Origin: Burkholderiales bacterium | Lineage (GTDB): Bacteria; Pseudomonadota; Gammaproteobacteria; Burkholderiales; Burkholderiaceae_E | Assembly: GCA_003577305.1 (NCBI GenBank) | Contig: QEVL01000016.1 | Coordinates: forward strand, 1-64,000 | DNA: 64,000 nt | Direction: 5' to 3' | Part shown: positions 1-19,572 of the stretch, one piece after another | Numbering within the stretch: the stretch's first letter is position 1 | Layout of the letters: every line of letters starts with the position of its first letter | Position numbers and translations under genes: made by a program | The notes under the pieces: generated by a model | What the model saw: the letters and a program-made list of their open reading frames with translations, nothing else | The model's database searches: none | What the model was told of the DNA's origin: nothing

Positions 1-181
1 ACTACCCATGAGTCGACTCGCTTCTTCTCCAAGGCTTCGCTCCGACGCCGCGCACGGCGCGGCTCGGAACGATAGTTTACCTATTTACGGATAAGTTCTT
101 ATCGTCCCGTATCGCCACGTTCCGACTTGGTTCGACGCATCGCCCGATGAACGGGCTGCCCTCTTCGGAGCGATCGACGCA

Positions 182-3100
182 GTGTGCGCCGAGGTCGACG
201 CACGTCTGCCAGCCACCGGCTTCAACTTTGGCATCAATGTCGGGCAGTCGGCAGGCCAGACCGTCCCTCACCTTCACCTTCACGTGATACCGCGGCGCGC
301 TGGTGACGTACCGGATCCGCGCGGGGGTGTGCGTTACGTCATCCCGGAGAAGGCCAACTACCTGGCGGCGGAGAATAGGCCGCCAAACATCCTGCGCGCC
401 AGGGAGCCGCGGATACTCGAAACGCTGCTCACGACCGGTGGCGACAATCCTCTTCTGATCCAGCTCGAACGCGATCTATCCGACGCGCGGTCGCTGGACG
501 TCGCAGTGGCGTTCGTCATGCCGAGCGGTGTCGAGCGGCTTTACCCACATTTCGAGGATCTTCTCGAGCGCGGCGGCGGCCTTCGGCTATTGACGGGTGA
601 CTATCTCGACGTCTCCGATCCGAACGCGCTCCAAAGGCTCGTCGACTTGCGCGCACTCTACGGCGAGGAAAAATGCCAGCTGAGAGTGTTCGAGAGTAAG
701 GGCAAAAGCTTTCATCCGAAGGCCTACGTGGTCTCGCATGTCGGAGGGAGAGGCGCGGCCTACGTCGGAAGCTCGAATCTTTCCGCATCGGCCCTCGTAG
801 ATGGAATCGAGTGGAACTACCGCATCCTTTCTTCGCGCGATGCCGATGGTTGGCAGCAGGTGAGCGACGCGTTCCAGGCCTTGTTTGGCCACCCTGCGAC
901 GCGAGAGCTGGACGAATCGTGGCTCTCCGAGTACCGCCGCCGCAGACACGTGCCGAGCGATCGCGGGACTGATGCCGAAGCGGAAATTGAGGTGCCGCCT
1001 CCGCCGCCGGCGCCCAACGTCATCCAGACCGAGGCGCTCGTGGCATTGGCCAAGACCCGGGACGATGGCTATCGCGCCGGTCTCGTCGTCATGGCAACGG
1101 GTCTGGGCAAGACCTGGCTCGCAGCGTTCGACAGTGCGGATCCAAAGTACCGGCGTGTTCTATTCGTCGCGCACCGGCAAGAAATTCTCAGTCAGTCGAT
1201 CGCGACGTTTCGGCGAATTCGGCCAAACGCGTCGATCGGCCTATATATTGGGAGCGAGCGAGCACCCGAAGCGGACATCCTGTTCGCATCGATCCAGACG
1301 CTAGGTCGGAACGAGCACTTGCGGCGCTTCGATTCGAGGGCCTTCGACTATATCGTCGTCGACGAGTTTCATCACGCGTCGGCGCCGACGTACCGACGCC
1401 TGATCGATCATTTCGAGCCGCAGTTCCTGCTCGGTCTAACCGCTACCCCTGAGCGTACCGACGGCGGAGACCTCTTGGCGCTGTGCCAAGAAAACCTGGT
1501 CTTTCGTTGTCTGGTGCCGAGAGGAATCGAGGAAGGGTTGCTTTGCCCCTATGACTATTTCGGCGTCCCCGACGACGTCGATTACGCGAACATACCTTGG
1601 CGTAGCACGCACTTTGACGAAGAAGCGCTGACCACGGCGGTCGCCACTCAGCGTCGAGCCGACAATATTATCGAACAGTGGCGCAAGCGCGGTGGTAAGC
1701 GGACCCTCGCCTTCTGCGTCTCGCAGCGTCATGCCGACTTCATGCGGCGCTGCTTCTCTGATCAAGGCATAGCCTGCGCGGCAGTGCACGCCGGACCATC
1801 GGCCGATTCCCGCTCGGTTTCTCTGGAGCGTTTGGCGGCTGGAGACTTGCAGGTGATCTTTGCCGTCGACATGTTCAACGAGGGAGTCGACGTTCCTGCG
1901 ATCGACACGGTGATGATGCTTCGGCCCACCGAGTCGCAGATCGTCTGGTTGCAGCAATTCGGTCGCGGCTTGCGAAAACACGGGGACAAGCGGCTGACGG
2001 TCATCGACTACATCGGCAACCATCGCAGCTTCCTGCTCAAGGCCCGCACGTTACTAGAACTCGTGGGCGGGGGCGATCGCGCGTTGTCCGCAGCGCTCGA
2101 ACGGATCGAAGCAGGGACTTACGAGCTGCCGCCCGGCTGCGAGGTCACCTACGATCTCGAGGCCCTGAACATCATGCGCGCGCTGCTTAGGATACCGGCC
2201 GATCCGGCTGATGCACTGCGCGAGTACTACTTAGACTTCCGAGAGAGAAACGGCGCGCGGCCTAGCGCCTCCGAGGCCTTCCACGACGGCTATCTCCCGC
2301 GCACGGCGCGACGGGCTCACGGATCGTGGTTTGGCTTCGTCTCGACCATGGGCGACCTGGAAGGCGAGGAGAGGCAAGCACTCGATATCGCGCGGCCGTT
2401 CTTGGAGGCGCTGGAATCGACCAAGATGACGCGCAGCTTCAAGATGCTCGTGCTCCTGGCGATGCTGAACACCGACACGCTTCCCGGCAGCGGCATACGA
2501 ATCGACGACCTCAGCGTCGAGTTCGTCCGACTCGCCCGTCGCAACCCGAAGCTCGCCGGCGACCTCGGGGCTGCCGTCGACGACGGCAGTGACGCACGGA
2601 TTCTGATCGAGCGGAACCCTATCGCGGCGTGGACCGGCGAAGGCGCAGTTCCGGGGGGTGCAGCATTCGCGTACTCGGCGAACGTCTTTCGCTATCGGCA
2701 ATCGATTCCGGATTCAGCACGAGCGGGATTCCAGCGACTCGTTCGGGAGCTCGCCGAATGGCGGTTAGCCGAGTATCTGTCGCGCACTGACGAGACGCCG
2801 TTGCAGAACGCGTTCACGATGAAGGTCAGCCATTCGGCCGGACAACCGATTCTCTTTCTGCCGGATCGCTCGAAGGTTGCGGGCATCCCCGAGGGTTGGC
2901 AGTCGGTGTTGATTAACGGCAGACCCCATCGGGCAAACTTCGTGAAGATTGCCGTCAACGTCGTGCGTGCGGCGGATAGCGACGACAACGCACTGCCGGC
3001 GATCCTTCGCGGATGGTTCGGTCACGATGCGGGGCGCCCAGGAACTAACCACGCCGTAATTTGCGAGCATGTCGAGGGCGAGTGGGTCATGCGCCCGGCC

Positions 3101-3610
3101 ACGCACCGCGGTGACGACGAGGCGGAGGTGTTCAAGCGCTATTCGCGCGAGCAGATTCCCCGCCTATTCGGCGACCAGTTTTCGGAGGCGCGCTGGAACT
3201 CGGGCTTCGTATTGATTACTCCGGAGAATCCGAGGTACGTCATCCTCTTGGTGACGCTTCACAAAGGAGACATGGCAAGTCAGTTTCAGTACGGCGACCG
3301 CTTTCTCGCGTCCGACTTGTTCCAGTGGCAGAGCCAGAATCGTACAAGGCAATCCGGCAAGCACGGTACGTTGATAAGTGATCACGCGACTCTGGGCGTC
3401 TCGGTGCACTTGTTCGTCCGTTCCGAGAAGAAGCGAGCGGGTGGCGCCGCAGCACCGTTCGTCTATTGCGGGCCTGTGACGTTCGTGGATTGGGATGGCG
3501 AGGCGCCCATTACGGTGCGTTGGCGGTTGTCGCAGCCTTTGCCGACCCGTTTGATCGCCGAGTTCAAAGTTGCGTCGTCAGGGGAGTCCCCGGACTCGAG
3601 AAATGGATAA
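182..3610 (+). CDS. HIT-PLD-DEAH helicase-DUF3427 fusion protein, 5' end damaged
   Basis: Large multidomain nucleic-acid enzyme. From the GTG at 182 the protein has 1142 residues. It starts inside a HIT nucleotide-hydrolase domain (His triad HLHLH at residues 30-34), followed by a phospholipase-D-like nuclease motif (HPK near 177, GSSNLSAS near 197). An SF2 helicase core follows: Walker A MATGLGKT near 304, DEFH near 393, TATPER near 420, motif VI QQFGRGLRK near 590. A long C-terminal DUF3427-type region completes it. Homologues carry a complete HIT domain; here the reading frame stays open and HIT-like upstream of 182 (VLIVPYRHVP) but is cut by TAA at 92-94, just where the first HIT strand should start. 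The HIT part is therefore probably truncated, while PLD and helicase look intact. The role is unknown; DNA or RNA surveillance or defence is inferred from the architecture. Confidence 0.85.
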   Translation: MCAEVDARLPATGFNFGINVGQSAGQTVPHLHLHVIPRRAGDVPDPRGGVRYVIPEKANYLAAENRPPNILRAREPRILETLLTTGGDNPLLIQLERDLSDARSLDVAVAFVMPSGVERLYPHFEDLLERGGGLRLLTGDYLDVSDPNALQRLVDLRALYGEEKCQLRVFESKGKSFHPKAYVVSHVGGRGAAYVGSSNLSASALVDGIEWNYRILSSRDADGWQQVSDAFQALFGHPATRELDESWLSEYRRRRHVPSDRGTDAEAEIEVPPPPPAPNVIQTEALVALAKTRDDGYRAGLVVMATGLGKTWLAAFDSADPKYRRVLFVAHRQEILSQSIATFRRIRPNASIGLYIGSERAPEADILFASIQTLGRNEHLRRFDSRAFDYIVVDEFHHASAPTYRRLIDHFEPQFLLGLTATPERTDGGDLLALCQENLVFRCLVPRGIEEGLLCPYDYFGVPDDVDYANIPWRSTHFDEEALTTAVATQRRADNIIEQWRKRGGKRTLAFCVSQRHADFMRRCFSDQGIACAAVHAGPSADSRSVSLERLAAGDLQVIFAVDMFNEGVDVPAIDTVMMLRPTESQIVWLQQFGRGLRKHGDKRLTVIDYIGNHRSFLLKARTLLELVGGGDRALSAALERIEAGTYELPPGCEVTYDLEALNIMRALLRIPADPADALREYYLDFRERNGARPSASEAFHDGYLPRTARRAHGSWFGFVSTMGDLEGEERQALDIARPFLEALESTKMTRSFKMLVLLAMLNTDTLPGSGIRIDDLSVEFVRLARRNPKLAGDLGAAVDDGSDARILIERNPIAAWTGEGAVPGGAAFAYSANVFRYRQSIPDSARAGFQRLVRELAEWRLAEYLSRTDETPLQNAFTMKVSHSAGQPILFLPDRSKVAGIPEGWQSVLINGRPHRANFVKIAVNVVRAADSDDNALPAILRGWFGHDAGRPGTNHAVICEHVEGEWVMRPATHRGDDEAEVFKRYSREQIPRLFGDQFSEARWNSGFVLITPENPRYVILLVTLHKGDMASQFQYGDRFLASDLFQWQSQNRTRQSGKHGTLISDHATLGVSVHLFVRSEKKRAGGAAAPFVYCGPVTFVDWDGEAPITVRWRLSQPLPTRLIAEFKVASSGESPDSRNG

Positions 3611-4322
3611 GACGCTCTCGTTGCCCGGAGTCGATAGCGAAGGGGCAGCCATTGCCGCGACGAAGGCGGGGCTCTCGGCATTCTGGGATTGGTTCGATGA
3701 CTCTGTAGTGATCGATCGCCATGGCAGGCCGGTAGTGGTCTATCGTGGCGAATACGGAGCGCCCGACTTGGCCCCCTTCTTGAGTACGCGACTTGGCTCC
3801 CTTTCGTTCGGGGACCGTGAAACGGCGTTGGGTTATGCCCGTCATCCAAACAGACTGGGAGAGATTCCAACATATCCGAGGGTTCATGCGGCGTACTTGG
3901 CAATTGGGAACCCGGTCGTCAACCAGCCGGACGATCCGTTTATAGAATTGACGACGCTCGAGGCTGTACTTGGACGGAACAACGCTGAGCGAATCGCGAA
4001 GAAGCTCGCTACATGGATCATGCAGACATCGCCTTGGGTGAACGGCGAAATTCGTGCGAAGTCAGTCGAAGAATTTCTTGATACCCACCCAGACGCGCTT
4101 GCACGCCTGTATGTTCAGGCCTTTCCGCTTTTCGACGACCCGGAGGAAGTTGCCCATATGAAGGCGGCCGGTTTTGACGGGGCGATCTACGGAGGTGCGG
4201 GGCTGAATGCCGGCGCGGTCGAGTATCGGGTATTCGATGCGGACTCTGTCCGGGAAGTGCCGTCAGAGGTCATCAGCGGTCTAACAAGTTCGCTGCGTGA
4301 CTATTGGAGGAATTGCCGATGA
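3603..4322 (+). CDS. ADP-ribosyltransferase-like protein
   Basis: 239 residues, probably a mono-ADP-ribosyltransferase fold of the kind found in phage polyvalent proteins and toxins. Visible pieces: YRGE (Arg48) where this family has a Y-H/R-G-T strand; SLSFGDRETALGYA (Ser66/Ser68) like the STS/FFS motif; and AVEYRVFDADSVRE (Glu207) as the C-terminal strand with the candidate catalytic Glu. This gives a possible R-S-E triad. The ATG at 3603 lies inside the end of the helicase gene (8-nt overlap), implying translational coupling; a TTG at 3570 would add 11 residues. Base composition is less GC-rich than most of the window, suggesting acquisition. The target and activity are unknown, and the family assignment rests on short motifs. 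Confidence 0.6.
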   Translation: MDKTLSLPGVDSEGAAIAATKAGLSAFWDWFDDSVVIDRHGRPVVVYRGEYGAPDLAPFLSTRLGSLSFGDRETALGYARHPNRLGEIPTYPRVHAAYLAIGNPVVNQPDDPFIELTTLEAVLGRNNAERIAKKLATWIMQTSPWVNGEIRAKSVEEFLDTHPDALARLYVQAFPLFDDPEEVAHMKAAGFDGAIYGGAGLNAGAVEYRVFDADSVREVPSEVISGLTSSLRDYWRNCR

Positions 4323-4432
4323 CGCGCTGGGCCGCTCTTCTAGCTTGCGTAATCTCTTTGGACGCATGCGGCGCGACGATCTATCTATGCAAAGCCTATA
4401 GCCGCGGGTCATTCTGGTCGAGTGACTGCTGA
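4319..4432 (+). CDS. 37-residue lipoprotein-like peptide
   Basis: Too short for usual gene callers but well marked: ATG at 4319 overlaps the stop of the preceding gene (ATGA) and a strong GGAGG lies at 4306-4310, 8 nt upstream. The peptide has a short hydrophobic N-terminus with a lipobox-like LDAC, then YLCKAYSRGSFWSSDC. The last part resembles the start of small proteobacterial lipoproteins with a CKAYSGGxFWSS-like motif, which normally continue beyond the third Cys. The TGA here therefore suggests a truncated family member. It could be a membrane-anchored partner of the helicase/ART genes or only a remnant. Confidence 0.5.
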   Translation: MTRWAALLACVISLDACGATIYLCKAYSRGSFWSSDC

Positions 4433-4467
4433 TGGCTGGAATGCCGCATTCGCTGACCTCCAACCGA

Positions 4468-4696
4468 CTACTGCCGCCTACACCGCGCTCGAAGGCCGCA
4501 CCTTCCGCGCCAGCGCCCTTACCCGCGGCCCCTGGGACCCCAATCACCAACACGCCGGCCCCCGATCGCCGTCGTCTGCCGCGCCGTTGAGCAAGCCGCC
4601 CACGAGCACGGCCCCGCCGAATCGGCGCTCTACGACGCCCAAGTCCTGATCGGACGCGCGACGCAGAGCCTGGTGGTGCGGCTGCGATCGTCGTGA
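4468..4696 (+). pseudogene. Degraded, internally deleted copy of the thioesterase gene at 10048-10869
   Basis: The stretch matches the intact gene 5.5 kb downstream in two blocks. Block one (about 4468-4609) corresponds to its first ~45 codons (shared peptide pieces FRASALTRGP, HQHAG). It runs directly into block two (about 4613-4696), which corresponds to the last ~25 codons (ESALYDxQ, RATQSL). About 600 bases are missing between them. Block one also lacks one C in the C-run near 4560, which shifts the frame. No complete reading frame remains; the copy ends with the matching TGA. Confidence 0.75.
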
Positions 4697-4741
4697 GCCA
4701 TTGACGAAGAATGGCACTGCTCACGCTCTCGATGGCATGTC

Positions 4742-5155
4742 GTGGCGAACGCGAAGCAGATCGCCAATGCGGTAGCAGGGTCTTACGGCAAGGACGCCGG
4801 AGACGGCCTGCTGAAGTTGCTGGCGGGTCACTGGGGCGCGGTCAAGGCGCTCACCGATTCGGCGAAGAGCAAGTCCGTCGCCGGTGAAGACAAGGCGATG
4901 AACGATCTCGGCATGAACGCCGGCGCGATCGCGAAGTTCCTGGCCGGTGCCAACCCCAACTGGAAAGAGAGCGACCTCGATTCGGCGCTGCTGATGCACG
5001 GCGGCGATCACCGCAAACAGGTCGACCTGATGATGTCCAGGGCGCCGAAGGGCGAACAGGGTGCGGCGTGGACCGAAATGCAGCACCACATGGACATGAT
5101 TGCCGACGCGCTCGCTGATGGCATCGCGAAGCAGTTCCCCGACAAGGCGAACTGA
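4742..5155 (+). CDS. Small helical protein of unknown function
   Basis: 137 residues from a GTG start; no ATG exists in frame between the upstream stop (4694) and this GTG. Predicted soluble and alpha-helical, without cysteines or membrane segments. I do not recognise the family. The C-terminal ~45 residues (GDHRKQVD, AAWTEMQHHMD, IADALADGIAKQFP) recur in a partial gene at 19367-19570, so this is a mobile or duplicated local family. No convincing Shine-Dalgarno precedes the GTG. It converges on the efflux pump genes. Confidence 0.6.
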   Translation: MANAKQIANAVAGSYGKDAGDGLLKLLAGHWGAVKALTDSAKSKSVAGEDKAMNDLGMNAGAIAKFLAGANPNWKESDLDSALLMHGGDHRKQVDLMMSRAPKGEQGAAWTEMQHHMDMIADALADGIAKQFPDKAN

Positions 5156-5185
5156 GCCGGACAAGACCGCCCGCGCGCATCGGCC

Positions 5186-6748
5186 TCACCGATGCGCCGG
5201 AAGCGGCCGCGTGATCCAGATGAACCCGCACAGCAGCACGAACAGCACCGCCGAACCGTAGAAGAGGTCGTTGGCCGACAGCGTGTAGGCCTGCTGCTCG
5301 GCCATCTGCTCGATGGCCTCGAGCGCCTGGGCGGGCGACAGGCCGAGCCCTTGCAATCGGGCGAACGCGTCGGCGGCGCCGATGCTGTCGCGGCTCACTG
5401 CCTCGGCCAGGTGCGCGTGGTGCATCGAGGCGCGGTGGTCCCACAGCGTGGTGGAGATCGATGTGCCGAACGAGCCGGCCAGGATGCGGAAGAAGTTGCT
5501 CAGGCCGGAGGCGGCGGCGATGCGCTCGGGCGGCAGGCCCGAGAGTACGATGGCCACCAGCGGCACGAAGAAGAACGCCACCGCCACGCCCTGCACGATG
5601 GTCGGAATCACGATCGAGACGAAGTCGGCCTGGGTGTCGAAGAGCGAGCGCAGCCACAGCACCAGTGCGAAGACCACGAAGGAGATCGTGGCGAGCAGGC
5701 GCGCGTCCCACTGGCCGATCTTGCGGCCGACGATCGGCGTGAACACCGCCGCCAGCAGCCCCACCGGCGCGAGCGCCATGCCGGCCTGGGTGGCGGTGTA
5801 GCCGAGGTATTGCTGCAGCCACAGCGGCAGGATCACCACGTTGCCGAAGAACAGCGCGTAGGCGAGCGCCAGCGCGGCCACGCCGGCCGAAAAGTTGCGC
5901 CCCCGAAAGAGCGACAGGTCGATCACCGGGTGCTCCTCGGTGAGCTCCCAGACGAGAAAGACGACCAGCCCGACGAGCGCCACCAGGCCCAGCACGACGA
6001 TGGTGCCCGAGGCGAACCAGTCGAGCTCCTTGCCCTTGTCGAGCATGATCTGCAGCGCGCCCACCCAGAGCACGAGCAGCGAGAGGCCCACCACGTCCAC
6101 CGGCAATTTGCGGCGCGGCGTCTCGCGGTGCCGGTAGATTGCCAGCGTGAGCGCGGCGGCGAACAGGCCCACGGGAATGTTGATGTAGAAGATCCACGGC
6201 CACGAGATGTTGTCGGTGATCCAGCCGCCCAGCAGTGGGCCGGCCACCGGCGCGATCAGCGTCGTCATCGACCACATCGCGAGCGCGGTGCCCGAGCGGT
6301 GCCGCGGGTAGCTCGCCAGCAGCAGCGTCTGCGACAGCGGCACCATCGGCCCGGCCACGGCGCCCTGGAACACGCGAAACGCGACCAGCCACTCGATCGA
6401 AGGCGCCAGGCCGCACAGCCAGGAAGCGAGCACGAACAGCAGCACGCTCGCCACGAACAGGCGCACCGTGCCCACGCGCTGCGTGAGCCAGCCGCTGAGC
6501 GGCACCGAGATCGCGTTGGCCACGCCGAAACTCGTGATCACCCAGGTGCCCTGGCTGATACTCACGCCCAGGTCGCCCGAGATCGCCGGAATGGAGACGT
6601 TGGCGATCGAGGTGTCGAGCACGTTCATGAACGTGGCGAGCGACAGCGCGAAAGTGCCCAGCACCAGCGCACCGCCGGTGAGCGGCGGTGGCGTGCCGTT
6701 GCCGCCGGCCGCGCGCGCTTCAGCGGCCGGAGGCGGCGCGTCGGCCAA
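5186..6748 (-). CDS. emrB: DHA2-family multidrug efflux permease, EmrB type
   Basis: 520-residue inner-membrane transporter, the proton-driven component of an EmrAB-type tripartite pump. It is rich in hydrophobic segments (about 14 expected). Family motifs visible: LDTSIANVSIPAI in the first helix, GTWVITSF, a motif-A-like GWLTQRVG, and the motif-C region SMTTLIAPVAGPLLGGW, followed by WPWIFYINIPVG. The start overlaps the end of the membrane-fusion gene by 29 nt. Last gene of a MarR-nodT-emrA-emrB operon. Substrate not predictable. Confidence 0.92.
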   Translation of the reverse strand: MADAPPPAAEARAAGGNGTPPPLTGGALVLGTFALSLATFMNVLDTSIANVSIPAISGDLGVSISQGTWVITSFGVANAISVPLSGWLTQRVGTVRLFVASVLLFVLASWLCGLAPSIEWLVAFRVFQGAVAGPMVPLSQTLLLASYPRHRSGTALAMWSMTTLIAPVAGPLLGGWITDNISWPWIFYINIPVGLFAAALTLAIYRHRETPRRKLPVDVVGLSLLVLWVGALQIMLDKGKELDWFASGTIVVLGLVALVGLVVFLVWELTEEHPVIDLSLFRGRNFSAGVAALALAYALFFGNVVILPLWLQQYLGYTATQAGMALAPVGLLAAVFTPIVGRKIGQWDARLLATISFVVFALVLWLRSLFDTQADFVSIVIPTIVQGVAVAFFFVPLVAIVLSGLPPERIAAASGLSNFFRILAGSFGTSISTTLWDHRASMHHAHLAEAVSRDSIGAADAFARLQGLGLSPAQALEAIEQMAEQQAYTLSANDLFYGSAVLFVLLCGFIWITRPLPAHR

Positions 6749-7982
6749 GATTGGCCTCGATGATTTCGCGGATCATCGCGTCGGCTGCGTGAGCTGCGCT
6801 GGCCGCGCCGCCTGCCGGCGCCGGGCCGGCATCGGCCTGCGCCAGCGCGGGCGGCTGCGTGCGCGGCGCTTCGGCCAGCAGCGGGCCGCTCTGGTCGTGC
6901 AGGTCGATCTTCACCTGCATCGACAGCCCGACGCGCAGCGGGTGCTCGCGCAACTGCGCGGCGTCGAGCGCGATGCGCACCGGCACGCGCTGCACCACCT
7001 TGATCCAGTTGCCGGTGGCGTTTTGCGGCGGCAGCAGTGCGAAGGCGGCGCCGGTGCCCGCGGCCAGCCCGGTCACGCGGCCGTCGAACTCGACCTTGCC
7101 GCCGTAGAGATCGGCGGTGAGCTTCACCGGCTGGCCGATGCGCACGCCGCGCAGCTGCACTTCCTTGAAATTGGCCTCCACCCACACCTGGTCGAGCGGA
7201 ATCACCGCCATCAGCGGCGTGCCCGCCTGCACGCGCTGGCCTACCTGCACGCTGCGGCGCGCCACGTAGCCCGAGACCGGCGCAGGCAGCGTGGTGCGCT
7301 CGAGCGCGAGCCAGGCTTCGCGCACCGCAGCGGCCGCGCGCAGCACGTTCGGATGCTCGCGCACCGGCGTGCTGCCGGTGAGCGCCTGGTTCGCCTCGAA
7401 CTGCCGGCGCGCGACGACGACCGCCGCGCGCGCAGCACTGGCGGCCGCGGCGGCCTCGTCGATCGCGCGCCGCGCGTGACCGAGCTCCTCGCCGCTCACC
7501 GCGCCGCTGGCGCCGAGGTGCTGGCGCCGCTGCAGGTCTTCGCGCGCGCGTTCGAGCTCGATGCGCGCGCGCGCTTCGTCGGCTTCGCGCTGCTCGATGC
7601 CGGCGCGCAGCGTGGCGTTGGCGGCGTCGAGCGAAGCCGCTTCGCGCACCGCCTGCGCGAGCTGCGCCTGTGCCTGCGCGAGCGCCACGCGTGCGTCGGC
7701 CGGGTCGAGCAGCGCGAGCGGCTGGCCCGCCTCGACCCGGTCGGTGTCTTCCACGTTGATGGCGAGCACCGTGCCGGCGATCTGCGGCGTGATCTGCACC
7801 AGGTGCCCCTGCACGTAGGCGTTGTCGGTGTCGACGTAGTGCTGGCCGACGAGCGTCCACCAGGCGCCGTAGCCGGCGCCGGCGAGCAGCACGACCAGCG
7901 CGACCAGCGCCAGGCCGATGCGGCGCCGGCGTCCGCGCTTGCGGGGCGAGGCAGGCGCGGTGCTGGCGGTCTCGTCACTCAC
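6720..7982 (-). CDS. emrA: HlyD/EmrA-family membrane fusion protein
   Basis: Periplasmic adaptor linking the EmrB permease to the outer-membrane channel. About 420 residues from the GTG at 7982, which has a GGAG 8 nt upstream and overlaps the upstream stop by 8 nt; another GTG at 8012 would add 10 residues but has no ribosome site. An Arg/Lys-rich cytoplasmic start (PRKRGRRRR) and one transmembrane helix precede a biotinyl-lipoyl strand (DTDNAYVQGHLVQITPQIAG), a long coiled-coil hairpin (Ala/Gln/Glu rich) and the barrel (TLPAPVSGYVARRSVQVGQR). Confidence 0.92.
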   Translation of the reverse strand: MSDETASTAPASPRKRGRRRRIGLALVALVVLLAGAGYGAWWTLVGQHYVDTDNAYVQGHLVQITPQIAGTVLAINVEDTDRVEAGQPLALLDPADARVALAQAQAQLAQAVREAASLDAANATLRAGIEQREADEARARIELERAREDLQRRQHLGASGAVSGEELGHARRAIDEAAAAASAARAAVVVARRQFEANQALTGSTPVREHPNVLRAAAAVREAWLALERTTLPAPVSGYVARRSVQVGQRVQAGTPLMAVIPLDQVWVEANFKEVQLRGVRIGQPVKLTADLYGGKVEFDGRVTGLAAGTGAAFALLPPQNATGNWIKVVQRVPVRIALDAAQLREHPLRVGLSMQVKIDLHDQSGPLLAEAPRTQPPALAQADAGPAPAGGAASAAHAADAMIREIIEANLGRRAASGR

Positions 7983-9420
7983 GATGGGTCTCCGATCGAT
8001 CGCTGCGTTCACTGTCGTTGCCGCGGTAGCCGCCGCCTAGCGCGCGCACCAGCGCGAGGTCGAGGTCGACCCCGCGCGCGGCCAGTTCGATGCCGTTGCG
8101 CCGCTCGGCGAGCACGCCCGACTGCGCCGACAGCACGGTGAGGTAGTTCGCCAGTCCGGCGCGGTAGCGCTCGAGCGCGAGCGCATCGGCGGCTTCTGCG
8201 GCGGCGCGCGCGGCGTCCTGCTGAACGCGCTGGCGTTCGAGCGAGCGCAGCGAGGCCAGCTGGTCGCCCACTTCGCGCACCGCGCCGGCCACGGCGGCGT
8301 TGTAGCCGGCCACCGCCGCATCGAGGTCGGCGGTCTTGCCGCGCAGGTTCGCGCGCAGCCGCCCGGCATCGAACACCGGCAGGCGCAGCGCCGGGCCCAC
8401 GCCCCAGACGCGGCTGCCGCCTTCGAGCCAGTGCGTGAAGCCCAGGCCCGAGAAACCGACGAAGGCGGCCAGGTTCACGTCGGGATAGAACTCCGTGACC
8501 GCCGCGTCGCGATCGCGCAGCGCCGCCTCGATGCGCCAGCGTGCGGCGACGATGTCGGCGCGCCGCCCGAGCAGGTCGGCGCCGATCGGCCCGGAGTACG
8601 CCTCGCGCGCCGTGGCCGGCATCGCGGGCGACAGGTCGGCGAGCGCCTCGGCCGGCTGCAGCGTGAGCGCGGCCAGCGCATTGCGCGCGAGCGCGGCCTG
8701 CTCGTCGAGCGCCTCGGCCTGCCCGGCCGCCTCGGCCACCGCGCGCTCGGCCTGGCGCAGCTCCACTTCGGTGTCGAGGCCCGCGCGCGCGCGTTGCGCA
8801 ACCAGCTCGCGCAGCTGCGTGCGCTGGCGCAGCGTGTCGGCGGCCAGCTCACGCAGCGCCACCACCCGCGCGAGCTGGAACCATGTGCGCGTCACTTCGG
8901 TCGAGAGCAGCACGCGGGCCGCCTGCAGGTCGGCCTGCGCGGCGCGCGCCTGGCCGAGCGCGGCGTCGAGCAACGCGCGGTTGCGCCCGAACAGATCGAG
9001 TTCCCACGCGGCGTCGAGCCGCACCGAGTTGCTGGTGAGCACGCTGCCCGCGATCGGCGGCGGAAAGAGGTCGTGCTCCGAATAGCGTTGGCGCGAGGAG
9101 GCGAGCGAGCCCGACACCTGCGGCTGGCCTGCGGCGTCCACCGCCTGCGCGAGGCTGCGCGCCCGTTCGAGGCGGGCCTTCGACACCGCGAGCGTGGGGT
9201 TGTCGGCGAGCGCGCGCTCGACGAGCGCATCGAGCCGCGCGTCGCCGAAACGCTCCCACCAGCGCTCGCCGGGCCAGTCGAGCCGGGTCGTGTCGGCGGG
9301 CGCCACGCCCAGGCTGCGCACGTCGATCGGCGCGGCGGCCGGCTCGATGCCGGCGTGGCTCGCACAGCCGGCCAACACGAAGAGCGCCCCGGCTGCGGCG
9401 CATCCGCGCATGCGCGTCAT
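7975..9420 (-). CDS. NodT-family outer-membrane efflux lipoprotein
   Basis: 481 residues; TolC-like channel of the efflux pump, anchored by a lipid. Signal peptide with lipobox (ALFVLAGCASH, Cys near residue 18). Then the NodT pattern: WWERFGDARLDALVERAL near the start, two outer-membrane efflux repeats and the C-terminal GLANYLTVLSAQSGVLAER. The ATG at 9420 overlaps the regulator's stop (ATGA), so it is translationally coupled. The frame stays open upstream, but that part is antisense-like and lacks signal features. Confidence 0.92.
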   Translation of the reverse strand: MTRMRGCAAAGALFVLAGCASHAGIEPAAAPIDVRSLGVAPADTTRLDWPGERWWERFGDARLDALVERALADNPTLAVSKARLERARSLAQAVDAAGQPQVSGSLASSRQRYSEHDLFPPPIAGSVLTSNSVRLDAAWELDLFGRNRALLDAALGQARAAQADLQAARVLLSTEVTRTWFQLARVVALRELAADTLRQRTQLRELVAQRARAGLDTEVELRQAERAVAEAAGQAEALDEQAALARNALAALTLQPAEALADLSPAMPATAREAYSGPIGADLLGRRADIVAARWRIEAALRDRDAAVTEFYPDVNLAAFVGFSGLGFTHWLEGGSRVWGVGPALRLPVFDAGRLRANLRGKTADLDAAVAGYNAAVAGAVREVGDQLASLRSLERQRVQQDAARAAAEAADALALERYRAGLANYLTVLSAQSGVLAERRNGIELAARGVDLDLALVRALGGGYRGNDSERSDRSETHRE

Positions 9421-9911
9421 GATTGGCGCTTCGGGGTGTCTGCGGCAGCGCGCTCGTGCCGGCCATTGTCGATCATGCGCACCAGGTAGGCGCGCAACTG
9501 CTCGAACTCCTTTCGGTCGAACCCTGCGAGGTGGACGTTGTTGGCGTGCGCGAGCCCGGCCGGCACCTGTGCGGCCGCCTGCTCGCCGGCAGGCGTGAGT
9601 TCGAGCACCCAGACGCGCCGGTCTTCGCGCGAGCGGGTGCGGCGGATCAGGCCCTTGGCCTGCAGCCGGTCGAGCGTGCGCGTCATCGCGCCGGCATCGA
9701 GGTCGAGCGCCTGCGCAAGCGCGGCCGCAGTGCGCGCCCGGCCGCGGGCGATCAGCAGCAGCGGCCCCCACTGCGCATCGGTGAGGTCGTATTCGGCCAT
9801 CGTGCGATCGATGCAGTGCGTGAACGACATCCTGAGCTGGCGCACCAGGAAACCGACGCTCTCGCCCGCCGGGTAGGTGGCCGCGTCGTAGAAGGGTTTC
9901 GCGGAAGTCAT
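9417..9911 (-). CDS. MarR-family transcriptional repressor of the efflux operon
   Basis: 164 residues with a winged helix: recognition region TAAALAQALDLDAGAMTRTLDRLQAKGLI followed by the wing RTRSREDRRVWVLELT. First gene of the operon and coupled to the outer-membrane gene. A palindrome lies 14 bp upstream of its start, so autoregulation and control of the pump in response to a phenolic or drug ligand is likely (inference from MarR/EmrR practice). Confidence 0.92.
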   Translation of the reverse strand: MTSAKPFYDAATYPAGESVGFLVRQLRMSFTHCIDRTMAEYDLTDAQWGPLLLIARGRARTAAALAQALDLDAGAMTRTLDRLQAKGLIRRTRSREDRRVWVLELTPAGEQAAAQVPAGLAHANNVHLAGFDRKEFEQLRAYLVRMIDNGRHERAAADTPKRQS

Positions 9912-9924
9912 GCGGCAATATAAT

Positions 9925-9934
9925 TGCCTAGGCA
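9925..9934. promoter_or_regulatory. Palindromic operator candidate for the MarR regulator
   Basis: TGCCTAGGCA is a perfect 10-bp palindrome in an AT-richer pocket, 14 bp before the marR start codon and between the efflux operon and the divergent thioesterase gene. Size and position suit a MarR dimer. Flanks are not symmetric. Confidence 0.5.
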
Positions 9935-10047
9935 GCTATCGTCAAGTCGGCCCGATCAGCCGGCCCGATCGGGCGCCGGCGGCTCGCATGCGCCCGCGGC
10001 CCGCCTTATGATCGACCGATTCCCGGCACGACACCCGGACCATCAAC

Positions 10048-10869
10048 GTGACCCGCCCGCAAGAACTCTCTGCCCCCTCGGCTGCGTACGCCGCGCTCGA
10101 CGCCCGCAGCTTCCGCGCCAGCGCACTCACCCGCGGCCCCCGGGATCCCGGCCACCAGCACGCCGGCCCCCCGATCGCGCTGGTCTGCCGCGCCGTCGAA
10201 CAGGCCGCGCACGAGCACGGCCTCACCCACGTCGCGCGCCTCACCGCCAACCTGTTGCGGCCCGTGCCGATCGGCGACGTCGTCGTCGAAGTGATGACCG
10301 ATTACGTCGGCCGCAACGCCGGGCACTTCTCCGCGCACCTGCTTGCGGGCGGCAAGGAGGTGGCGCGCTTCACGGCGCTCGTGCAGCGCGAGTCGGCCGC
10401 GAAGTTGCCGGCCGACCTTCCCGGTCATCCGTTGCCGATGGCGCCGCGCACGCCGGAAGAGTCGCCGGTGGTCACGTTTCCGTTCGCCGGCGCGCAGCTC
10501 TGCTACGCCGATCTGGTCGAGACGCGCGCCGCGCAGGGCATGTTCTGGAAGGGGCCGTGCGCGATCTGGTTTCGCCAGCGTCATCCGCTGGTAGAGGGCG
10601 AGACGCCGAGCCCCTATCAGCGCGTGCCGGTGGCCGCCGATTCCGGCAACGGCATCAGCGGCGTGCTCGACTATCGGCGTCACAGCTTCGTGAACTCCGA
10701 TCTCACCATCAACCTGCTGCGGCGTCCGGTCGGCGAGTGGATCTGCCTCGATGCGCGCACCGCGCTCGGCCCCGACGGCGGCGGCCTGGCCGAATCGGCG
10801 CTCTACGACGTGCAGGGGTTCATCGGGCGGGCGACGCAGAGCCTGGCGGTGCGTTTGCGGTCGGGCTGA
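10048..10869 (+). CDS. TesB-like acyl-CoA thioesterase family protein
   Basis: 273 residues, double hot-dog thioesterase-superfamily protein (4HBT_3/TesB-like). The N-terminal half has FRASALTRGP, HQHAGPPIALVCRAVEQ and ARLTANLLRPVPIG; the C-terminal half has NSDLTINLLRRPVGEWICLD and ESALYDVQGFIGRATQSLAV, both typical of this family. GTG start chosen because it sits just before the conserved N-terminus. Single-gene unit divergent from the MarR operon. Acyl substrate unknown. A broken relative is at 4468-4696. Confidence 0.8.
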   Translation: MTRPQELSAPSAAYAALDARSFRASALTRGPRDPGHQHAGPPIALVCRAVEQAAHEHGLTHVARLTANLLRPVPIGDVVVEVMTDYVGRNAGHFSAHLLAGGKEVARFTALVQRESAAKLPADLPGHPLPMAPRTPEESPVVTFPFAGAQLCYADLVETRAAQGMFWKGPCAIWFRQRHPLVEGETPSPYQRVPVAADSGNGISGVLDYRRHSFVNSDLTINLLRRPVGEWICLDARTALGPDGGGLAESALYDVQGFIGRATQSLAVRLRSG

Positions 10870-11052
10870 GCGCGTTCGGCCTCGCATGGCGCGCCGTTTG
10901 TGCCCGACAGCGCCTCACTTGCTCAGTAGCCCCTGTCCGACAATTTCCGGGCCGCTCACAGCTGGAATTGCGCCATTCGGCCGCCCATCCAGAAGCCTGG
11001 ATACATCTTCTGAATAATCGAACCGCGCGTTCAGACGAATTCAGGTTTGCCG

Positions 11053-11979
11053 ATGGGAAACATGGTCCAGCAGACCGCCCTTATTCTCGGTGTCCTCGCT
11101 GCCGGCTTCCTTGGCCCCGCTCTGGCGATTGCGGCGCTGGTGTTGCGACGGCGCCGCGCTCGGGCGCGCCGAAGGACGCCTCTCTCGGAGGATATGTTGC
11201 GTCCTCCAGGCCATACGTTGCGGAAGCAACTCGACGACGCCAGCATCGACCTGCAGTGGGATGTATTCCAGCTCGTGACCATACCCCTCCTGACCTTGGC
11301 CATCCTTCTGGGGCAGGGCCACCTGCATGGCGACCTTCGAGCAGTCATGCATCTGGCGCCGTTGTTCGCAGTTGGGGTCCTGGCATTCATCGGGTTCATG
11401 GTGAGGAAGCTCTGGAAAGCCGGAGAGCGACTGGACCGTCTCAGAGCCGGCCTCGATGCCGAGCTCGCTGCAGCTCAGGAGCTCGACAAATTGATGCGGC
11501 AAGGTGCGATCCTGTTCCACGACTTTCCGGCGAACGACTTCAACATCGATCACGTCGTAGTCTCCGGCGAGGGCGTTTTTGCGATCGAGACGAAGGGCTT
11601 CACCAAGCCCAATGGCGGACGGGGCAAGGCGGACGCCACCGTCGAGTTCGATGGAAGCATCCTGCGGTTTCCGGGCTGGACCACCAAAGCGCCGCTGGAA
11701 CAGGCTCGAGGACAGGCCACCTGGCTGGCCAAATGGCTCGGCGAGGCAGTCGGTGCCCCGATTCGAGTGCTTCCAGTCCTTGCCCTGCCGGGCTGGTATG
11801 TGAAGCGTACCGGCCGTGGCGATGTGCGGGTCTTCAACGGCAAGGAATTGGCCGGACTCCTGAAGGCACGTGGTGCGCAGTCTTTGTCACCGCAGGACGT
11901 ACAACGCGTCGCGCATCAGCTCGAGCAACGATGCCGTACCGTCGAACCGATGCTGTCAGAAAGAATGCGGGCGGCGTAG
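11053..11979 (+). CDS. Membrane-anchored NERD-domain protein
   Basis: About 308 residues. One N-terminal transmembrane helix and a basic stretch (LRRRRARARRRT), two more hydrophobic segments around residues 75-120, then a NERD (nuclease-related) domain: GAILFHDFPAN, FNIDHVVVSGEGVFAIETKGF, and a C-terminal helical part. The D-x(n)-ExK core of the nuclease fold is visible as DHVVV...FAIETKG. ATG at 11053 is preferred over TTG 11047. Its stop overlaps the next start by one base (TAGTG). Confidence 0.8.
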   Translation: MGNMVQQTALILGVLAAGFLGPALAIAALVLRRRRARARRRTPLSEDMLRPPGHTLRKQLDDASIDLQWDVFQLVTIPLLTLAILLGQGHLHGDLRAVMHLAPLFAVGVLAFIGFMVRKLWKAGERLDRLRAGLDAELAAAQELDKLMRQGAILFHDFPANDFNIDHVVVSGEGVFAIETKGFTKPNGGRGKADATVEFDGSILRFPGWTTKAPLEQARGQATWLAKWLGEAVGAPIRVLPVLALPGWYVKRTGRGDVRVFNGKELAGLLKARGAQSLSPQDVQRVAHQLEQRCRTVEPMLSERMRAA

Positions 11980-12539
11980 TGCGCTTCGACGGCAAGCTCT
12001 CGAGGTGGAACGACGACCGCGGCTTCGGTTTCATCACTCCGACCCTGGGCGGCGACGACGTGTTCGTCCATGCTTCGGCCTTCCCGCGAGACGGGAAGGC
12101 TCCGCGCCTGCATGAGACGCTCTCGTTCGAAGTCGAATTGAACAAGGAGGGCAAAAAGCGCGCTACCAGGGTCCGTCGTCCTGGCAGTTCCCGGTCAATC
12201 GTATCGCGCGAGCGCGAGGCCCTGCCATCGAGCCGGACGCGCAGCCTTTCCGGTCGCGTAGTGGGTGTCGCGCTGGCGGTTGCGATCGGCGTTTTCGGCT
12301 TTTCGGAGTATTCACAGAGAGTGGGCCGCGGATCTGATGTGCCATCGGCTGCCCGGCTCGCGGCGCAGGAGGACCGTTCGAGCGCGCCCGTCTTCCAGTG
12401 CGACGGTCGAACTCATTGTTCACAAATGACCTCGTGCGCCGAAGCCAAATACTTCCTCGCGAACTGCCCGGGCACGAAGATGGACGGGGATCGCGACGGG
12501 ATCCCTTGCGAGCAGCAGTGGTGCGCGGGCGCCTATTGA
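11979..12539 (+). CDS. Cold-shock domain protein with C-terminal excalibur calcium-binding domain
   Basis: 186 residues from the GTG overlapping the NERD stop. N-terminus is a cold-shock fold (GKLSRWNDDRGFGFI, DDVFVHASAF). A basic linker and one transmembrane helix (VVGVALAVAIGVFGFSEY) follow. The C-terminus is an excalibur domain: CDGRTHCSQMTSCAEAKYFL and DGDRDGIPCEQQWC with its DxDxDG calcium loop. A nucleic-acid-binding domain on one side of the membrane and a Ca-binding domain on the other is the expected topology. Coupled to the NERD gene. Confidence 0.85.
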   Translation: MRFDGKLSRWNDDRGFGFITPTLGGDDVFVHASAFPRDGKAPRLHETLSFEVELNKEGKKRATRVRRPGSSRSIVSREREALPSSRTRSLSGRVVGVALAVAIGVFGFSEYSQRVGRGSDVPSAARLAAQEDRSSAPVFQCDGRTHCSQMTSCAEAKYFLANCPGTKMDGDRDGIPCEQQWCAGAY

Positions 12540-12711
12540 CTGCGCCTCTCGCGCTCGCGCAAGCAACGCCAACGCGCCGGAGCGGTGAGGACATGGTTGC
12601 AGGCGCCGGACAGGGGTGCCGAACGCGGTGTTGAGCACGCTGACCATTCGCCGCATGTCCTCGACCATCGGCGCTACAGACGGCGAGGCATGGCGCCGCA
12701 TAGTCTCGGCA

Positions 12712-12740
12712 TTGCCTCATCGTGGACATCCATCTTATAT
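12712..12740 (+). promoter_or_regulatory. Promoter candidate of the tumE-tumA pair
   Basis: TTGCCT at 12712-12717 and TTATAT at 12735-12740 are 17 bp apart. Transcription would start around 12747, almost at the tumE ATG (12750), implying a very short or no leader. The overlapping TATATT (12738-12743) would fit even closer. Confidence 0.4.
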
Positions 12741-12749
12741 ATTGCTAGC

Positions 12750-13037
12750 ATGCAATACACGGCAGCCGTCCTGCTCGCGTACGCTAAGGAAGTCCGGGAC
12801 GACGGCTCCATCGTGGAGATCGTGATCTGGGAGGTTCCCCGACCCTTGCCGCCATGCTCGCATCGATACAAGTATCGCCTGTATTACGGCTTGTCGGGTG
12901 AGTGTCGAGTGCGATACGACAACGAGCGCGGCAAGGGTGATCACCGGCACTTCGGGGAGCAGGAGGGCGAGTACGCCTTCGTGTCGATCGAGCAGTTGCT
13001 CGACGATTTCCGTTCCGACGTTGAGCGTTGGGGGTGA
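12750..13037 (+). CDS. tumE: TumE-family toxin
   Basis: 95 residues. Matches the TumE (formerly DUF6516) toxin pattern: GSIVEIVIWEVP, HRYKYRLYYG, RYDNERGKGDHRHFGEQEG, YAFVSIEQLLDDF. The Y-D-N-E-R-x-K-G-D-H-x-H block is the conserved centre. The ATG at 12750 is chosen for homology length and because it directly follows the promoter-like hexamer. The antitoxin starts 2 nt after the stop. Confidence 0.85.
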   Translation: MQYTAAVLLAYAKEVRDDGSIVEIVIWEVPRPLPPCSHRYKYRLYYGLSGECRVRYDNERGKGDHRHFGEQEGEYAFVSIEQLLDDFRSDVERWG

Positions 13038-13629: not shown

Positions 13630-14046
13630 ATGAGGAGAGTCTTCAAGACCCGCTTCTTTGGTCGATGGGCCCGAAAGTCAGGCCTGTCGGATCGTGCGCT
13701 GTGTCGCGCGCTGCAAGAGATGGCCAGCGGCCTGATCGATGCCGACCTCGGGGGCGGTCTCGTCAAGAAGCGGATCCAGCTGGCCGGGCGCGGCAAGCGG
13801 GGCGGGGCCAGGACGCTCGTGGCTACCGACAAGGCCTGTCGCTGGTTCTTCCTGTTCGGATTCGGGAAGAACGAGCGGTCGGACGTGAGCAGCGACGAGC
13901 TCGAAGCGCTGCGCGAACTCGCTGCCGATCTGCTGGCCAGGACCGCAACGCAGCTCGATGAAGCGGTCGCTGATGGGGCCTTGCAGGAGATATGCCGTGG
14001 TGACCAAGCGAAAACCGAAGAGCCGGATACTCGAGGCTGTTCATGA
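13630..14046 (+). CDS. higB: RelE/HigB-family toxin
   Basis: 138 residues of the RelE-like type II toxin family PF06296: VFKTRFFGRWARKSGLSDRAL, EMASGLIDADLGGGLVKKRI, GRGKRGGARTLVAT, WFFLFGFGKNERSDVS. The basic residues of the ribosome-dependent RNase surface are present. The usual product ends near LQEICRGDQ; here the frame runs on about 15 residues inside the antitoxin gene. The mRNA would be nearly leaderless. Confidence 0.85.
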   Translation: MRRVFKTRFFGRWARKSGLSDRALCRALQEMASGLIDADLGGGLVKKRIQLAGRGKRGGARTLVATDKACRWFFLFGFGKNERSDVSSDELEALRELAADLLARTATQLDEAVADGALQEICRGDQAKTEEPDTRGCS

Positions 14047-14320
14047 AACCGCCAGCGACCTGCATCGCCTGCGTTTCATCGACAAGCGCAAGATGCAGGC
14101 GTACGACGCGCTGTGCCTGTCGCCGGTGCCCGAATACGACGCAGCAAGGATCCGCGAGCTGCGCGAGAGCCTGCGTCTGAGTCAGTCGGTTCTGGCGGCA
14201 GTGCTCAACACCAGCGTCTCCACGGTTCGCAAATGGGAGATCGGCGACAAGAAGCCGAGCGGACCGTCGTCGAAGCTGCTCGATCTCATCGAACGCAAGG
14301 GGCTCGAAGCGGTGCTGTGA
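13997..14320 (+). CDS. higA: HigA/XRE-family antitoxin
   Basis: 107 residues; XRE helix-turn-helix at the C-terminus (LRLSQSVLAAVLNTSVSTVRKWE, GDKKPSG). The GTG at 13997 is preceded by AGGAGA at 13985-13990. The ATG at 13958 has no such site. The gene overlaps the toxin by 50 nt, so its translation probably depends on ribosomes on higB. Its 3' end overlaps the convergent SAM-synthetase gene by 35 bp. Confidence 0.85.
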   Translation: MVTKRKPKSRILEAVHETASDLHRLRFIDKRKMQAYDALCLSPVPEYDAARIRELRESLRLSQSVLAAVLNTSVSTVRKWEIGDKKPSGPSSKLLDLIERKGLEAVL

Positions 14321-19366: not shown

Positions 19367-19570
19367 GTGATGCGAGAGCCGATTATCGCCGATCGCGCGG
19401 CCGCGCTCAAGTACGGCGCCGACCACCGCAAGCAGGTCGATCCGACGATGTCCAACGCGCCCGTGACGGAACAGGTCGCGGCCTGGACCGGGATGCAGCA
19501 TCATATGGACGCGATCGCCGACGCGCTGTCCGATGGCATCGCGAAGCAGTTTCCCGCCAGGGTGAACTGA
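19367..19570 (+). pseudogene. Fragment of the small-protein family seen at 4742-5155
   Basis: 67-codon frame whose last ~50 codons match the C-terminus of the 4742-5155 protein (GADHRKQVD, AAWTGMQHHMD, IADALSDGIAKQFP), clearly also at DNA level. The first ~15 codons are unrelated, and the N-terminal two thirds of the family are missing. Probably a decayed copy, though a short expressed peptide cannot be excluded. The 285 bases before it (19082-19366) show no gene. Confidence 0.65.
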
Positions 19571-19572
19571 GC

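Follow-up and report, generated by a model that had tools for sequence, protein, structure and literature searches.

A HIT-PLD-helicase gene of the type IV restriction kind overlapped by an ART-PolyVal-like gene in a Burkholderiales bacterium

The subject of this study is a pair of overlapping genes, one for a HIT-PLD-helicase and one for a putative ADP-ribosyltransferase (ART), at the left end of a 64,000-nucleotide stretch of a Burkholderiales bacterium genome (GCA_003577305.1; 3.1 Mb, 46 contigs, 90.7% complete). This stretch, called the window below, comprises bases 1-64000 of contig C33, and its first base is the first base of that contig. The larger gene resembles SauUSI, a type IV restriction enzyme whose SRA-fold target-recognition domain is placed at residues 806-953 (PMC7913695). 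For ART-PolyVal, the domain that the smaller gene recalls, an H-Y-D active site is reported (PMC5512222). The ARTs of polyvalent proteins are believed to target the host at an early stage of infection or transfer (PMC5512222, PMC9503650). A HIT protein, ThsC in the PADLOC naming, occurs in 2.4% of Thoeris systems, with a proposed action on an ADP-ribose (ADPR)-type messenger (PMC8565338).

The window gene shares with SauUSI (structure 7clg) a PLD nuclease, an SF2 ATPase and a C-terminal DUF3427/SRA-like region in identical order; it differs in that its relatives add an N-terminal HIT domain, truncated in the window, and in that the window carries the overlapping ART gene. With ThsC-containing Thoeris it has in common a HIT domain in a defence locus linked to NAD chemistry, but here HIT is fused to the restriction enzyme. 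The Thoeris partners of HIT are TIR and SIR2/SLOG or macro proteins. No Thoeris partner genes were found among seven window frames given to Pfam, and no full window search for them was made.

ART genes from two branches of the ART tree adjoin members of this same enzyme family, and other members of the family lack an ART. We tentatively favour, at somewhat under an even chance, the view that a phage-type ART was recruited more than once to accompany, as an optional accessory, a HIT-fused restriction enzyme of type IV. No account of a HIT-fused SauUSI, or of an ART beside one, was found among the titles and abstract beginnings listed from open-licence literature, which does not prove its absence.

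The restriction-type gene and its HIT domain

A preliminary description of this DNA, made from the sequence alone, had proposed a large helicase with a PLD nuclease, and profile searches agreed. In the large window protein (P0002; Table 1), Pfam recovered PLD-like, ResIII/Helicase_C and DUF3427 domains together with what is left of a HIT domain, and all the motifs sought were present, namely HLHLH (HIT), HPK...GSSN (PLD), GLGKT (Walker A), DEFH (DExH) and QQFGRGLR (motif VI). The best PADLOC model was mREase_IV (2.1e-110). The full-length sister protein P0005 matched the SauUSI structure 7clg (3e-88) as well as many HIT structures, the best being Ap4A phosphorylase and other HIT/FHIT proteins, and a profile built from six DUF3427 ends matched residues 797-917 of 7clg (6.3e-12). 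Three sequence features of a SauUSI-type enzyme were found: (i) an N-terminal PLD domain with HxK and GSxN, (ii) an SF2 ATPase with Walker A, DExH and motif VI, and (iii) a C-terminal DUF3427/SRA-like domain. By analogy, the large gene probably encodes a SauUSI-like type IV restriction enzyme, for which ATP-dependent cleavage of DNA carrying 5mC or 5hmC is predicted. The antiphage system that the preliminary description had considered conceivable is supported in so far as the PADLOC, 7clg and DUF3427 profile matches place the large gene in a restriction family.

Only the C-terminal part of the HIT domain proposed earlier is present in the window. The Pfam signature was recovered, but it covers profile positions 59-97 of 98, compared to 6-97 in P0005; a complete HIT domain, as in an intact HIT-PLD-helicase, is found in the relatives. 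Contig C10 ends in 99 bases that match bases 1-99 of the window at 100% identity, and its flank is different; homology to the gene of sister genome G014 starts at base 98; and a separately deposited contig (L031), 99.98% identical to the window, likewise begins at base 98. The HIT domain is therefore cut at base 98 and, judged from these comparisons, is interrupted by the end of a repeated element. For the same reasons position 182, taken earlier as the gene start (frame 182-3610), was rejected as the natural start: an in-frame TAA lies at 92-94, and GTG 182 is the first start codon left after the truncation. A search of the rest of the assembly for the lost 5' end of the HIT gene found nothing, which says little for a genome of this completeness, and a search of plasmids for the repeat end (bases 1-99) found no copy. 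No decay is apparent in the remainder of the gene: its ratio of nonsynonymous to synonymous substitution rates (dN/dS) against G014 was 0.146 overall and 0.10-0.19 per 200-codon block. Most of the divergence between the window and G014 helicases may predate the insertion.

The sister genomes G014 (89% identity) and G008 (71%) encode HIT-PLD-helicases of 1208 and 1201 residues, respectively. In both, a SprT-like metallopeptidase gene lies directly upstream of the HIT-PLD-helicase gene and overlaps its start (L012, 779-1303; L013, 773-1303), which suggests a protease or DNA-protein-adduct theme. PLD-helicases were matched at 1e-60 in 17 of the 369 genomes of a class sample, with a clear HIT fusion in the genome of the window only, and at 1e-100 in three of 397 genomes of the order of the Bradyrhizobium metagenome-assembled genome (MAG) G802; both searches scored two candidates per genome, and these counts are possibly low. 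One class-sample genome, G757, has a weak HIT match upstream of its PLD-helicase. The same genome encodes a SauUSI-like PLD-helicase-DUF3427 protein fused to an N-terminal methyltransferase domain (L109, G757:C26:1-16000, 3214-7053). In G031, a HIT-encoding stretch directly precedes a PLD-helicase frame that carries PRA-PH (MazG-like) at its N-terminus (L108, G031:C40:8000-24000, 6249-9066), and this locus lies near type I restriction-modification, PtuA-like and PDC-M07A-like genes.

The ART gene and its relatives

The overlaps between neighbouring genes that had been described earlier were confirmed. The helicase stop codon (3608-3610) and the ART start codon (ATG 3603) give an 8-base overlap, and the ART stop codon (4320-4322) overlaps the ATG at 4319 of the next frame as ATGA. 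The ART frame has 239 codons and the frame after it 37.

The ART product was matched by phrog_8642 (2.6e-30) and by PF18760 (ART-PolyVal; E 0.032), in the latter case with 15.4 bits, below the gathering cut-off of 31.2. Conservation was assessed in a 41-row alignment (A3) of the window ART, L032-L034 and 37 of the 39 viral loci, with L050, L066, the same-strain L031 and the phage and plasmid records left aside. PF18760 matched 28 of the 41 aligned members (E<=0.01). The arginine at position 48 is present in every row, and the glutamate at 207 in all 40 ungapped rows. Position 68 is occupied by serine (25 rows), threonine (10) or tyrosine (6), and position 66 by serine in 33 of 41. Of the R48-S66/68-E207 triad put forward in the preliminary description, the two outer residues are consequently well conserved and the middle one varies. 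The H-Y-D active site of ART-PolyVal was not found in the aligned ARTs.

An AlphaFold model of the window ART, predicted from the alignment, reached a pLDDT of 87.3 and a pTM of 0.84; R48 lies on strand 46-50, S68 on 67-70 and E207 on 206-210. A Foldseek search of BFVD with this model returned 58 phage proteins at E<=0.001, several of them named ART-PolyVal, and the best match was a protein of Klebsiella phage Eowyn. Relatives and predicted fold agree with the ADP-ribosyltransferase-like protein proposed earlier, to which solved ARTs match weakly. Given the Pfam score below the cut-off, the matches of 28 of 41 relatives, the viral fold matches and the weak matches to solved structures, sequence and model place the window gene as an ART-PolyVal-like variant, not a certified member of the family. 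It resembles ART-PolyVal further in its conserved DG and C-terminal E, but is a solo chromosomal gene in which an arginine replaces the histidine reported for the family (PMC5512222). From the modelled fold and the motif we infer an NAD pocket. Between the window and L032, the dN/dS of the ART was 0.18 at a synonymous divergence (dS) of 0.85 (213 codons; helicase dS 0.35), and the ART is thus under purifying selection and has diverged further than its helicase.

Relatives of the ART were found in 50 phage records (the 40 listed all >200 kb), nine plasmid records and 39 IMG/VR loci, and many of them sit inside very long frames, as in polyvalent proteins. In a maximum-likelihood ART tree of 48 rows (INDEPENDENCE), built without L031, L004, L050, L066, L076, G1498 and G389, the window and L032 grouped with Eowyn, PhiEaH1 and one viral contig (97/93), and L033 grouped with two phage contigs (100/99). 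The deeper forks of the tree are weak, and Eowyn forms a long branch. Two ART branches are therefore found at the same enzyme family, so either the pairing originated two or more times or the ART was swapped within an old pairing. The solo ARTs of the jumbo phages Eowyn (Klebsiella) and PhiEaH1 (Erwinia) share the branch of the window ART, but are phage genes, and the Eowyn ART stands behind an Appr-1-p processing gene and not a helicase gene. In the Eowyn record (L006, 2546-3558) the ART comes immediately after this gene, which is annotated as an Appr-1-p processing enzyme, and the two may act as writer and eraser of ADP-ribose.

Recurrence of the gene pair and flanks of the locus

The first ART alignment served as the pattern for a scan of genome_contigs, a collection of 84,980 species. 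Of the 118 stretches matched, four loci (L031, L032, L033 and L034) encode an ART relative. L031 is the window strain or nearly so. L031 and L032 were deposited in bins named Planctomycetaceae and Microbacteriaceae. In L032, the helicase is 90% and the ART 74% identical to those of the window, and the overlap is kept as GTGGATAG, with a GTG start and AGGAGG upstream. Similarity of the L032 ART stops at residue 213, from where the frame continues into other sequence, and the HIT part is off the contig. In L033, from the Bradyrhizobium MAG, the HIT-PLD gene starts at 910 on the minus strand and the ART (41% identical) lies on the plus strand with TTG 1022 or 1049, 110-140 bp upstream of the HIT-PLD gene and facing away from it; the helicase part (51% identical) is on a second contig of this MAG, at its extreme end. 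The preliminary description had allowed for an ART-like gene that never recurs beside this helicase family; it does recur, in L032 and L033.

Bacterial ARTs were found at five separate loci or lineages: that of the window, L033, L034, G1498 and G389. In two of these a HIT-PLD gene adjoins the ART. From the three matching genomes in 397 and an assumed 4000 genes, the crude probability of adjacency by chance is ~4e-6 per ART locus, a figure that ignores defence-island clustering and gives the order of magnitude only. The ART itself is rare, being present in 1/61, 2/398, 1/74 and 2/399 genomes of whole-genome samples that overlap and each count the genome of the window; the two other genomes with a match are G1498 and G389.

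Searches for the partner of each gene at other loci gave negative results. An ART was not found at G008 (10 kb at the helicase and the whole genome), in the searched flanks of G1224, on the whole G014 contig, or in the 1.3-9.5 kb helicase flanks of G031, G757, G635, G533, G075, G587, G1010 and G1224; the L033 locus was recovered as a positive control in the flank search. Conversely, tblastn of the 39 viral loci, phage records L003-L006 (four of 50) and plasmid records L007-L010 (four of nine) detected neither a helicase nor HIT next to the ART, and none was found in a fifth plasmid record, L076.

The 37-residue frame behind the ART had been described as a lipobox peptide and as the third gene of a module. 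It matched the start of a 134-residue Variovorax protein weakly (58% over 24 residues, E 4), with ATIYLCKAY and FWS in common, and this was the sole plasmid match with an annotated gene. The Variovorax homologue lacks a cysteine where the lipobox had been proposed, a further copy of the frame was not found in the genome of the window, and the frame runs into pseudogene debris. On these grounds a 37-residue lipopeptide was rejected as a component of the system. By its sequence the frame is probably the N-terminal remnant of a ~134-residue protein family, and the three-gene module reduces to the first two genes.

Further features of the locus are listed in Table 1. The gene at 10048-10869, of which a deleted copy lies right of the ART, is thioesterase-like in our reading. 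Duplicated sequence is present on this side: window positions 4983-5157 and 19398-19572 are alike (80%), the first lying within a 137-residue frame (4742-5155) for which no match was found in the libraries tried. The seven frames given to Pfam included efflux, MarR, TumE-type toxin and helix-turn-helix proteins and one without a match, and no clear defence island emerged among them. The TumE-type toxin domain and the helix-turn-helix protein (12585-13037 and 13958-14320) may form a toxin-antitoxin pair. No RNA families were found in window positions 1-12000, and no tRNAs across the window.

Table 1. Features at the left end of the window
Feature	Coordinates	Strand	Remark
End of repeated, probably mobile element cutting HIT; also start of contig C33	1-98		
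5'-truncated HIT-PLD-SF2 ATPase-DUF3427 gene (probable SauUSI-like type IV restriction enzyme)	98-3610	+	GTG 182 is the first in-frame ATG/GTG/TTG left
HIT domain, C-terminal part with HLHLH (P0002 residues 2-40)	185-301	+	PF01230, 2.3e-08, profile 59-97 of 98
PLD-like nuclease domain with HPK...GSSN (P0002 residues 117-228)	530-865	+	PF13091, 4.6e-07
SF2 ATPase, ResIII and Helicase_C (P0002 residues 280-599)	1019-1978	+	PF04851, 3e-35; PF00271, 2.4e-13
DUF3427, counterpart of the SauUSI SRA-like target-recognition domain (P0002 residues 982-1128)	3125-3565	+	PF11907, 5.4e-19
ART-PolyVal-like ADP-ribosyltransferase-type gene, 239 residues, intact	3603-4322	+	Starts inside the end of the helicase gene
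37-residue frame, probable N-terminal remnant of a ~134-residue protein family	4319-4432	+	Weak match, E 4
Internally deleted, frameshifted copy of the gene at 10048-10869	4455-4696	+	Sequence comparison

Explanations of the pairing

Under the view favoured here, the enzyme would work as SauUSI does: the DUF3427/SRA-like end would recognise incoming DNA by its modified cytosine, the SF2 ATPase would translocate and the PLD domain would cut. The HIT domain may hydrolyse a nucleotide adduct or messenger. The bacterium would have captured an ART of the phage/plasmid family and kept it next to the restriction gene in an optional, accessory role. Translated together with the restriction enzyme, the ART would most likely serve as an NAD+-dependent second-line effector modifying a macromolecule of the infected cell or the invader. 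The enzymatic activity, the role in defence and the coupling are what we infer from the observations above, and functional coupling of ART and restriction enzyme has, in our estimate, about an even chance.

Several observations weigh against this view. Among the seven HIT-PLD-helicase loci (window, L032, G014, G008, G802/L033, G1010 and G1224), an ART is present at three and absent at four (G014, G008, G1010 and G1224), which makes the ART optional. G014, although its helicase is near that of L032 (dS 0.08), lacks an ART: the contig ends 79 bases past the gene, and searches of the G014 genome did not find one. Synteny between G1010 and G802 extends to both sides of the locus, with other sequence in G1010 at the ART position. 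ARTs also occur away from the helicase. In L034 (Massilia) no helicase was found in 20 kb of sequence, and in our reading that ART is in an integrated element; the ART of G1498 (G1498:C3:373110-373643), a decayed chromosomal relic, has an internal stop and no PLD-helicase within about 9 kb; and the partial match in G389 has no HIT-PLD-helicase within about 9 kb. The L033 ART is oriented divergently to its HIT-PLD gene and, by our own reading, has TTG but no ATG in frame ahead of the domain; it sits on a MAG contig of 5.2 kb and may be left over from a phage. L031 and L032 are probably mis-binned, since their bins are named for other phyla. The window ART scores below the PF18760 cut-off (15.4 vs 31.2 bits), and the PDB search with its model gave a single match at <=0.001, a pre-ejectosome protein of cyanophage A4, with PARP/tankyrase domains following weakly at ranks 2-39 (E 0.05-1, TM about 0.2-0.35). 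A PDB sequence search with the ART profile returned no ART among 10 matches.

Many of these points suit the explanation that a phage or integrative element landed by the restriction gene, an insertion hotspot, and left the ART as its relic; the overlap would then be a coincidence and the two genes would have no function in common. This is a substantial possibility, nearly as likely as an optional second arm: nearly all ART relatives were found in phage, plasmid or viral-contig records, a stop-interrupted solo ART and an ART fragment persist in G1498 and G389, the L033 ART without an ATG groups with phage contigs, debris lies right of the window ART and an element insertion on the left of the locus, and closely related helicase loci have no ART. 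A mere relic is, however, harder to reconcile with two separate ART branches adjoining the same rare enzyme family, and with an overlap retained in two lineages at a dN/dS of 0.18 and a dS of 0.85. The idea of the preliminary description, in which the ART adds ADP-ribose or a nucleotide and HIT removes or processes the adduct as an antidote or off-switch, has a precedent in ThsC, a HIT protein tied to NAD-derived signalling, which the HIT domain of P0005 matches (2.3e-10). We regard it as improbable, given that the window HIT is broken while the ART is intact, that four of the seven loci lack an ART, and that among solved structures Ap4A phosphorylase and other HIT/FHIT proteins match the HIT domain best. 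An obligate pairing of HIT with ART was rejected: HIT is broken in the window, the ART is under purifying selection there, and it is missing from four of seven loci. Slightly less probable still is a captured anti-restriction gene, that is, an ART that modifies and restrains the restriction enzyme for self-protection or regulation; the early action on the host attributed to polyvalent-protein ARTs would fit this, but at sister and syntenic loci the restriction gene occurs with no ART beside it.

The recruitment of a phage-type ART as an optional partner of the restriction enzyme remains the view we favour. A bolder form of it, which we consider rather unlikely, holds that HIT-fused SauUSI-type enzymes repeatedly and independently recruit phage ARTs as an NAD+-dependent arm that adds ADP-ribosylation to the sensing and cutting of modified DNA, with HIT processing the nucleotide product, and would make of the invaders' weapon a mixed restriction/NAD defence. 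The fusion of HIT to SauUSI-type enzymes, together with the HIT and PRA-PH/MazG-like case of G031, suggests that type IV restriction includes a step of nucleotide processing. Such ART domains are viewed as weapons delivered by phages and plasmids, and the pairing of ARTs from two branches of their tree with a host restriction enzyme suggests that they can be converted into parts of bacterial defence.

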